From the NCBI GenBank assembly GCA_010909725.1, contig JAACMV010000019.1, positions 744,001 through 808,000 of the forward strand: a DNA stretch of 64,000 nt, read 5' to 3'. Source of the stretch: Picochlorum sp. 'celeri'. Its lineage: Eukaryota; Chlorophyta; Trebouxiophyceae. Position numbers and translations under genes: made by a program. Positions 1,407 to 2,292 of the stretch are shown here, piece by piece; positions within the stretch are counted from its first letter, which is position 1, and the number at the start of each line of letters is the position of its first letter. The notes under the pieces are model-generated. The model was not told the DNA's origin, made no database searches, and worked only from the letters and a program-made list of their open reading frames with translations.

Positions 1407-1452
1407 CAATAAGTGGTGTACTTCCTTCTGGAAGGAAGTACGCTACTTATTG
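1407..1452. repeat. 46-bp near-perfect palindrome
   Basis: Arms 1407-1428 and 1431-1452 are inverted copies with about two mismatches, separated by a 2-bp centre. The core arm is GTACTTCCTTC / GAAGGAAGTAC. As RNA it would form a long hairpin. It lies about 50 bp beyond the 3' side of the permuted tRNA transcription unit (minus strand). Confidence 0.8.
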
Positions 1453-1479: not shown

Positions 1480-1503
1480 GCTTCTCTTTCCTTAATAAAA
1501 TTC

Positions 1504-1640
1504 CCTGAACCATACGCCTTAACCTCTCGGCCACACGATCGCTTTGATGGGAAGCTTCTGTCGATTTCGAAACTCCGATTCTTTTTAGTATTTCATTATG
1601 ATCGTGACAGGGTTCGAACCTGCGCTCTTTCGAATATGGA
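1504..1640 (-). tRNA. Circularly permuted tRNA-Leu (anticodon CAG)
   Basis: The two tRNA halves are in reversed order. On the minus strand the 3' half comes first (1640 to 1599: T38, anticodon-stem strand CCATA, variable arm, T arm with GGTTCGAACC, acceptor strand CACGATC, discriminator A73). A 58-nt spacer follows (1598-1541), then the 5' half (1540 to 1504: acceptor strand GATCGTG, D arm, anticodon-stem strand TATGG, anticodon CAG at 1507-1505). Joined, they give a 79-nt type II tRNA. It has a perfect 7-bp acceptor, a 5-bp anticodon stem, G18-G19, A14, A21, a 3-bp variable stem and A73, all typical of tRNA-Leu. The A box (from about 1533) lies downstream of the B box (1620-1610), the reverse of normal tRNA genes. 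Leader TTCCC (1651-1647) can pair with GGGAA (1505-1501), and a 3-nt bulge (1642-1640) marks the 3' cut, so the ends could be processed by tRNA splicing endonuclease. The mature RNA would lack encoded CCA. Confidence 0.92.
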
Positions 1641-2292
1641 TATTCTGGGAAATAGTACAAAAGCGGAATTCTTCCATTGTCAATAAGCCTCTGATCCTTA
1701 GCCAGGACCTCATAAGTGAGGTCTTATACGGAATTTCCTCCCTCCACAGTGCATTATATTCACTACAATAAATATATTATTAATTTGTGTTGCATTCTAC
1801 GTCTTCTGATATGATATTTAGCGAATATTGTGTAGTATACGCGGAGAACGAAGCCAATGTTTCTAGGCCCAAGTCATACGGTCGTTTCCATCCATTGATG
1901 TTGTTACGTCTTAAATCATCTAAATTAGAACAACCACTTACTCATGATGGTTGCCAAGGTATATAAGCATTGCGACGACAATAATAGTCAACGAAGATAT
2001 ATAAGCAAGTAACTATTGTAACTTGTACTAACATCTAAAGTGATAGAACGCACACACGTGTTCTGAACCTATATCATTGAGTTCCTGCCCAAGCAGTCTG
2101 AGCTCAAGCTTGAGTACTCTTCGTGATTTCAGGATTTTCCCTCCTTTTCTTGTCCTGCAAAGTTTTCGAGTGCCAAAATTGGATTTCTGGCCGATCTGAG
2201 GTGGAAACAGCTGTTTCCCTGCAGGGTGCAATAGATTACAATAGATGTAAATAAATCCCTTAGATGCGGTAGACGTCCAAAGATAGACGTGG
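1641..2292. other. AT-rich intergenic stretch
   Basis: The first bases hold the leader of the permuted tRNA. The rest (1690-2040) is AT-rich with no coding or RNA signal I can support. Open frames around 2028-2549 are in a different frame from the transposase-like fragment and look like shadows. Confidence 0.4.

Follow-up and report, generated by a model that had tools for sequence, protein, structure and literature searches.

A circularly permuted tRNA-Leu(CAG) gene in Picochlorum celeri, very probably functional and one of at least 15 tRNA kinds so encoded

The window analyzed here is a stretch of 64 kb of the Picochlorum celeri genome (C19:744001-808000), which was searched as 27,412,692 bases in 30 contigs. 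A tRNA-Leu(CAG) gene lies near one end of the window with its two halves in permuted order. Read along the minus strand, the order is leader, 3' half (1640-1599), linker (1598-1541), 5' half (1540-1504), and T stretch (1500-1497). The preliminary description placed the 3' half ahead of the 5' half with a gap of 58 nt. Its coordinates are exact, and the order it gives applies to the minus strand rather than to plus-strand coordinates. The features of the locus are as follows.

1666..1675, minus strand: GGAAGAATTC, chosen by eye as a candidate upstream promoter element; it is a degenerate RRAAWTTC
1641..1652, minus strand: intron-like 5' leader; the positions of the pairing nucleotides were derived by hand
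1599..1640, minus strand: 3' half of tRNA-Leu(CAG), with nt 38, the 3' strand of the anticodon stem, the variable region, the T arm (B box), the 3' strand of the acceptor stem, and A73
1541..1598, minus strand: linker (intervening sequence) of 58 nt, around which the acceptor stem closes in the predicted precursor
1504..1540, minus strand: 5' half of tRNA-Leu(CAG), with the 5' strand of the acceptor stem, the D arm (A box), the 5' strand of the anticodon stem, and loop nt 32-37 including CAG
1497..1503, minus strand: 3' trailer, with a Pol III-type TTTT at 1497-1500 that begins 4 nt past the 5' half

A further run of five Ts is present on the minus strand at 1475-1479, beyond the trailer. An inverted repeat (ACTTCCTTC TGGAAGGAAGT) occupies window positions 1407-1452, in the stretch that separates the upstream reading frame from the tRNA; an Rfam mir-1 match at the same positions is far under its gathering score.

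When the two halves are joined, the acceptor stem has 7 out of 7 pairs, the anticodon stem 5 out of 5, and the T stem 5 out of 5. The joined sequence contains the anticodon CAG, the discriminator A73, a variable region of 11 nt, and the conserved canonical nucleotides (U8, R15:Y48, G18G19, U33, U54U55C56). CCA is not encoded, as in eukaryotes. ARAGORN identifies the joined halves as tRNA-Leu(CAG). The earlier assignment to a type II tRNA-Leu(CAG) with perfect acceptor and anticodon stems and A73 is confirmed on these counts.

Over the 64-kb window, zero tRNAs were reported by ARAGORN and zero by Rfam at the gathering threshold, as expected because the gene order is permuted. A covariance model (R1) was constructed from class I tRNAs of this genome, six real permuted genes and nine permuted in silico, with no Leu among them. 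The covariance search for a permuted tRNA that had been proposed as a check was carried out with this model up to E 10, and the sole match in the window is at the tRNA-Leu(CAG) locus (1504-1634, minus strand), with 39.8 bits and E 8.9e-12. The match stops at 1634 and not at 1640 because a class I model puts the 3' strand of the anticodon stem on the variable region. Its order, joined structure, junction, T stretch, and lack of CCA support the reading of 1504-1640 as a permuted tRNA-Leu(CAG) gene of type II, with the junction at 37/38.

The junction can be described by its pairing potential. In the anticodon-intron (A-I) pair, nt 32 pairs with intron position -3. Leader A1643 (-3) of Leu(CAG) can form this pair with U32 (1509). 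The leader GAA (1643-1645) can pair with UUC (nt 32-34), and TTCCC (1647-1651) with GGGAA (1501-1505), giving a BHB/hBH-like motif at the 37/38 junction, as judged from pairing potential and the predicted fold. In its minimum-energy structure, folded without constraints, the pre-tRNA has the leader-trailer helix, a 3-nt bulge, the anticodon stem, the T arm, the acceptor stem closed around the linker, and the D arm. The TTCCC/GGGAA helix with its 3-nt bulge, as first described, is present in that fold. As a whole, the fold is no more stable than those of shuffled sequences (z -0.91). The linker, which is without TTTT, is predicted to form an 8-bp hairpin, likewise predicted in both alleles of the Leu(AAG) paralogue described below.

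The Leu(CAG) gene is also present on the homologous contig C11, where it is identical across 166 nt, and the two haplotypes are identical through the 3.1 kb surrounding it. A paralogue pair on contigs C22 and C2 is 86-87% identical to the Leu(CAG) gene and reads as a permuted Leu(AAG). The 3' halves of the two genes are identical at 42 of 42 nt, while the linker and flanks have diverged. The preliminary description set a genome search for a conventional tRNA-Leu(CAG) as a refuting test. Used as the genome query, the joined mature Leu(CAG), which reaches close copies only, was matched solely as two halves at four permuted loci, namely the two Leu(CAG) alleles and the two Leu(AAG) alleles; no conventional gene was found among close copies. 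The B-box inventory described next, which would miss a diverged copy with an unusual B box, likewise contains no conventional Leu(CAG) among the sites taken in. As expected, exact-word searches of prokaryote genomes and viral contigs gave zero matches to a 25-nt stretch from the 3' half.

The inventory covers twelve large contigs (C1-C8, C10, C11, C14, and C15; 13.66 Mb), or approximately half of the diploid total. There are 187 strict B-box sites, compared to 157 in the reversed control. One hundred of the 187 were listed: 30 as loci and 63 that were fetched, while a palindromic duplicate and six C16 sites were dropped. Two of the dropped C16 sites were later fetched as alleles. The B-box variant AGTTCRANTCT has 123 sites, of which 100 were listed and 27 fetched, with two more already in the set. 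Thirteen of the 63 sites of the variant GGATCGANACC were fetched, and all 11 sites of the variant GGCTCGAATCC were fetched and contain zero tRNAs. Sites identical over about 70 nt were merged in the script scan of the B-box loci. Three weak permuted rows (L011, L039, and L066) and two weak conventional rows (L118 and L127) were set aside by eye as chance. RF00005 scored just 63 of the 866 candidates. For several intron-bearing genes, among them Leu(CAA), Arg(CCG), and Pro(TGG), the name given by ARAGORN was replaced after inspection of the anticodon loop by eye.

At least 15 permuted tRNA kinds were identified in one haplotype by the B-box listing, the script scan, and the covariance model. 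These are Leu (CAG, AAG, and TAA), Ser (AGA and GCT), Ala (AGC, TGC, and CGC), Thr (AGT and CGT), Arg (TCT and TCG), Gly (GCC), Cys (GCA), and Met (CAT). The permuted Met(CAT) is called elongator-type by elimination, with initiator and elongator Met assigned by the author from the anticodon stem. At least 23 conventional kinds were located in one haplotype, and 13 of the 23 are intron-bearing. All three Ala genes located are permuted, as are the sole Cys and the sole elongator-type Met genes located; among the B-box sites taken in, no conventional gene was located for Ala, Cys, or elongator Met. Tyr, Val(AAC), Val(CAC), Gln(TTG), Thr(TGT), Leu(TAG), Arg(CCT), Gly(CCC), and Sec are expected in a set and are not among the kinds located from the sites taken in. 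A DNA search with the genome's own Val(TAC) matched just Val(TAC) itself, and a search with a plant Tyr tRNA gave zero matches.

The 15 permuted genes share a common architecture. In every gene, seven acceptor pairs and five anticodon-stem pairs (G-U counted) form across the halves, and the junction is at 37/38. The halves are on the same strand in all 15 and are separated by 11-128 nt. ARAGORN returns the expected anticodon for 15 of 15 tRNAs when the halves are joined; in genomic order it gets none of the 15 right and makes one false call. The R15-Y48 pair, which bridges the halves, is present in 14 of the 15 genes (G15-C48 in 12 and A15-T48 in two), and the Gly gene has A15-C48. The alanine identity pair is G3:U70. 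It is found in all three permuted Ala genes and in none of the 12 others. By these two patterns, the separately encoded halves fit each other. Nucleotide 73 is U in Cys, G in Ser and Arg, and A in Leu, Ala, Gly, Met, and Thr. None of the 15 genes encodes CCA. R1 scores of the permuted genes range from 28.1 to 67.9 bits, and six of the 15 are training members of the model. The halves of conventional tRNAs reach 26.2 bits with R1, just below the weakest permuted gene, Ser(AGA), at 28.1 bits, so R1 alone is not decisive near that border.

The A-I pair seen in Leu(CAG) recurs throughout the set. Nucleotide 32 and leader position -3 are pairable in 14 of the 15 permuted genes, compared to 6.7 expected (simulated P 3.5e-5). 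At the other leader offsets between -1 and -20, pairing of nt 32 is possible in 11 genes at -4 and in two to nine elsewhere. The exception at -3 is Ser(GCT), where the pair fails. The introns of conventional genes have the A-I pair at the same offset in 12 of 13, and the other offsets from -1 to -12 give two to nine. At six more positions in the A-I register, 57 out of 90 are paired in the permuted genes, compared to 43.6 with swapped leaders (P 0.0007). This register test was relied on in place of two others, in which own and swapped leaders of the 15 genes were compared by leader-trailer duplex energy (P 0.059) and by longest leader-trailer helix (P 0.14), neither of which told the two apart at the 5% level. 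Among unconstrained folds of the 15 precursors, 13 contain a complete acceptor stem, five a complete anticodon stem, and four the A-I pair. The A-I pairing common to the permuted genes and the conventional introns is a feature of the genes pointing to the tRNA-splicing endonuclease as the probable processing enzyme.

Sen34-like and Sen2-like catalytic domains are encoded in the genome. In the diploid assembly, the Sen2-like domain occurs at seven places (C10:613187, C16:614070, C21:81237, C9/C12/C26:1564, and C25:30222), four of them on C9, C12, C25, and C26. The Sen34-like domain occurs at two places (C7 and C24).

The distribution of T runs follows the permuted order. A TTTT is present within 40 nt past the 5' half in 15 of 15 permuted genes, compared to 2.5 expected. 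None of the 15 linkers contains TTTT, compared to 2.0 expected, a difference that is weak alone (P 0.10). The permuted Leu(TAA) has a TTTT within its 5' half.

Upstream of the permuted genes the motif RRAAWTTC was spotted by eye, and the conventional genes then served as its test. Of the 23 conventional tRNA genes, 11 have the motif in the 100 nt upstream, against a background of about 3% (P about 1.5e-11); three of these 23 upstream windows are short (56, 52, and 42 nt). Ten of the 11 matches are 21-59 nt from the gene and one is at 99 nt. Nine of the 15 permuted genes have the motif within 100 nt, against the same background of about 3%, and eight of the nine matches are at 34-45 nt. The ninth is that of Leu(CAG), at 98 nt. 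Nearer to the Leu(CAG) gene there is only the degenerate form GGAAGAATTC, and a TTTT at 1659-1662 sits between it and the 3' half, so transcription from this element would have to start downstream of that run. An upstream element seems to be common to conventional and permuted genes, judging from motif counts, and such an element could bypass the problem of inverted A and B boxes.

Two TFIIIC-related domains are also encoded in the genome. A Tau95/TFC1-like domain scores 65 bits, and 0 of 14 prokaryote controls match it. A B-block/TFC3-like domain scores 30.8 bits (cut-off 22) in a frame of 1597 aa; this family also matches four of the 14 prokaryote controls.

Alleles were compared for the seven of 15 permuted genes for which both were available, with gap columns omitted. 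Differences occur at 6 of 527 sites in the halves and at 50 of 898 sites in the near flanks, taken as 60 nt of leader, the linker, and 40 nt of trailer (Fisher P 1.3e-5). Five of the six differences within halves fall in Ala(CGC), and without this gene the counts are 1 of 456 and 29 of 771. In the far flanks of the seven pairs, 59 of 6592 sites differ (0.9%), about as few as in the halves (1.1%). The far-flank value is so low because two long Leu loci dominate it (5814 of 6592 sites), and the contrast of the halves is therefore against the near flanks. The halves seem to be under selection, having changed less between alleles than the near flanks; this says nothing on the Leu(CAG) copy itself, which is without allelic difference in 3.1 kb and so adds nothing to the test. 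In the two Ala(CGC) alleles (L099 and L181, aligned by eye), three D-stem pairs change and stay paired, and a fourth (13-22) is mismatched in the second allele. Near flanks are about 10-20% diverged between the alleles of Ala(CGC) and of Met(CAT), and not in the other five pairs.

Three other explanations of the Leu(CAG) locus were weighed. The first is a rearranged tRNA pseudogene, that is, a dead relic of a tandem duplication from which the outer halves were lost. Tandem duplication with loss of outer segments is discussed as an origin in Soma 2014, and the linker hairpin shared with the Leu(AAG) paralogue could be plain ancestry. However, all stems checked are intact, and the A-I pair and T stretch are in place. 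The 42-nt 3' half has stayed identical in the paralogue though linker and flanks diverged, and halves in the allele comparison differ less than their near flanks do. A dead relic also fits poorly with the only located Ala (three), Cys, and elongator-type Met genes being permuted, since all of them could be dead only if conventional copies were missed. We consider a pseudogene improbable.

The second is a split tRNA, with halves transcribed separately and joined in trans. The halves are indeed separate and a leader-trailer helix can form. Against it, none of the 15 linkers contains TTTT where 2.0 are expected (P 0.10), the halves of all 15 genes are 11-128 nt apart on the same strand, and in the predicted folds of 13 of 15 precursors the seven acceptor pairs close around the linker; a split tRNA is accordingly given very little weight. 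An accidental pair of T-arm-like and D-arm-like sequences, or a mis-assembly, may be dismissed almost entirely: B-box-like sequences are common (187 sites, 157 in the reversed control), but the window match has an E of 8.9e-12, the same arrangement occurs on two homologous contigs and in a diverged paralogue pair, and 14 more tRNA kinds are in permuted order.

The reading preferred here, on the evidence of sequence, is that this is very probably a working nuclear gene of Picochlorum for tRNA-Leu(CAG) in circularly permuted order, and that at least 15 tRNA kinds, this one included, are so encoded. Its expression would begin with Pol III starting upstream of the 3' half, at the upstream element. 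A single transcript would run through the 3' half, the linker, and the 5' half to the T stretch, in keeping with the pattern of T runs. The two ends of the precursor would then come together in the anticodon stem, the A-I pair, and the leader-trailer helix, as their pairing potential and its controls suggest. The eukaryotic tRNA-splicing endonuclease reads the mature domain and the A-I pair (Soma 2014). By analogy with the work on C. merolae and prasinophytes (Soma 2014), it would cut at 37/38, and a ligase would circularize the RNA by joining its ends. The linker would be taken out by RNase P and tRNase Z, followed by CCA addition. The predicted end product is an ordinary tRNA-Leu reading CUG.

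The gene matches the type known from C. merolae and the prasinophytes, with the same order, 37/38 junction, helix-bulge motif, T stretch, absence of CCA, and ordinary joined tRNA (Soma 2014). The table in Soma 2014 gives 11 permuted genes for C. merolae and three to six per prasinophyte, at most 11 in any organism, compared to at least 15 permuted kinds in Picochlorum. Linkers in the same table are 1-74 nt in length; the 58 nt of Leu(CAG) are within this range, and the 128 nt of the Picochlorum Arg(TCG) exceed it. The permuted tRNAs of the archaeon Thermofilum pendens are alike in order, but their junction is in the T loop at 59/60 and CCA is encoded (Soma 2014), unlike in Leu(CAG). The 13 conventional intron genes of Picochlorum have the same 37/38 junction and, in 12 of 13, the same A-I place; in these the halves are in normal order with the intron between them. 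TFC1-like and TFC3-like domains were detected in Picochlorum, whereas homologues of TFC1 and TFC3 are given as not identified in C. merolae (Soma 2014).

Soma 2014 records permuted tRNA genes in a few algae and a single archaeon. Two are reported from the Amorphochlora nucleomorph (PMC4494063). The trebouxiophyte Auxenochlorella UTEX 250-A also has permuted tRNA genes, which a first tRNAscan-SE search missed (PMC12636532, Plant Cell 2025); it belongs to the same algal class and carries the same kind of gene, though it is a different genus, and the Picochlorum genome is smaller, with 46% GC. The list of lineages in the preliminary description is incomplete, lacking Thermofilum pendens (Soma 2014) and Auxenochlorella (PMC12636532). 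The gene is not a prasinophyte marker, with Picochlorum being a trebouxiophyte and Auxenochlorella another trebouxiophyte case. RPN8, a protein encoded in the window, shares 96% identity with one from Picochlorum renovo, which ranks first among 120 of 5098 matches listed, and a prasinophyte origin of the DNA was rejected on this basis.

A literature search that covered chiefly openly available papers turned up no description of such genes in Picochlorum. Permuted genes of a trebouxiophyte are already in print for Auxenochlorella UTEX 250-A (PMC12636532). The genus and the scale appear to be new, as do the absence of conventional Ala, Cys, and elongator Met genes among those located and the occurrence of a common upstream element together with TFIIIC-like genes. 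The tRNAs of Picochlorum SENEW3 were annotated by tRNAscan-SE (PMC11092101), which suggests that annotation of this kind may miss genes.

With at least 15 permuted of the 38 located kinds, some of them without a located conventional counterpart, the permuted genes would be load-bearing for translation in this fast-growing trebouxiophyte. Rare as it is, the permuted arrangement looks like part of the normal protein-making machinery of the alga. A broader reading is offered tentatively and falls a little short of being favored: Picochlorum may rely on permuted tRNA genes beyond the scale of the table in Soma 2014, may make its Ala, Cys, and elongator Met tRNAs only via circular precursors, and may start its tRNA genes from a shared GGAAATTC-like element without ordered A and B boxes, with TFIIIC kept. 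If this is true, loss of TFIIIC is not a precondition for permutation. A phased diploid assembly of Picochlorum celeri (27.43 Mb, two sets of 15 scaffolds, 46% GC) has been public since 2020 (PMC7225527), and paper titles indicate Cas9 editing in this species. The essentiality of the circles, transcription with inverted A and B boxes, and the need for TFIIIC loss are therefore directly testable.

Several smaller observations come from the inventory. The permuted Arg(TCG), with its 128-nt linker, is present twice on C8, at L087:330-600 (C8:59353) and L090 (C8:537665), in inverted orientation and identical at 806 of 811 nt. By eye, it lies antisense between splice-like GTATGT and TTGCAG sites, perhaps within an intron of a protein gene. 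A T-arm-like sequence, GAGGTCCCGGGTTCAAA, is found directly 5' of a conventional tRNA-Asn and a tRNA-Phe (L009:1480-1500 and L025) and ends at the first base of the tRNA; it is possibly an additional B box or what is left of a tandem duplication of tRNA genes. An odd tRNA-like sequence, L110 (C14:382346), is read by the script scan as an intron-bearing form with CTA at the anticodon position, and Rfam scores a shorter tRNA there at 40 bits. A B-box-bearing repeat, CGGGGTTCGAGCCCCTA, occurs at L061, L106, L119, and L127 (C4:1105093, C14:4638, C15:4130, and C15:944812). Three of these four places are less than 10 kb from a contig end, and the repeat is perhaps subtelomeric.
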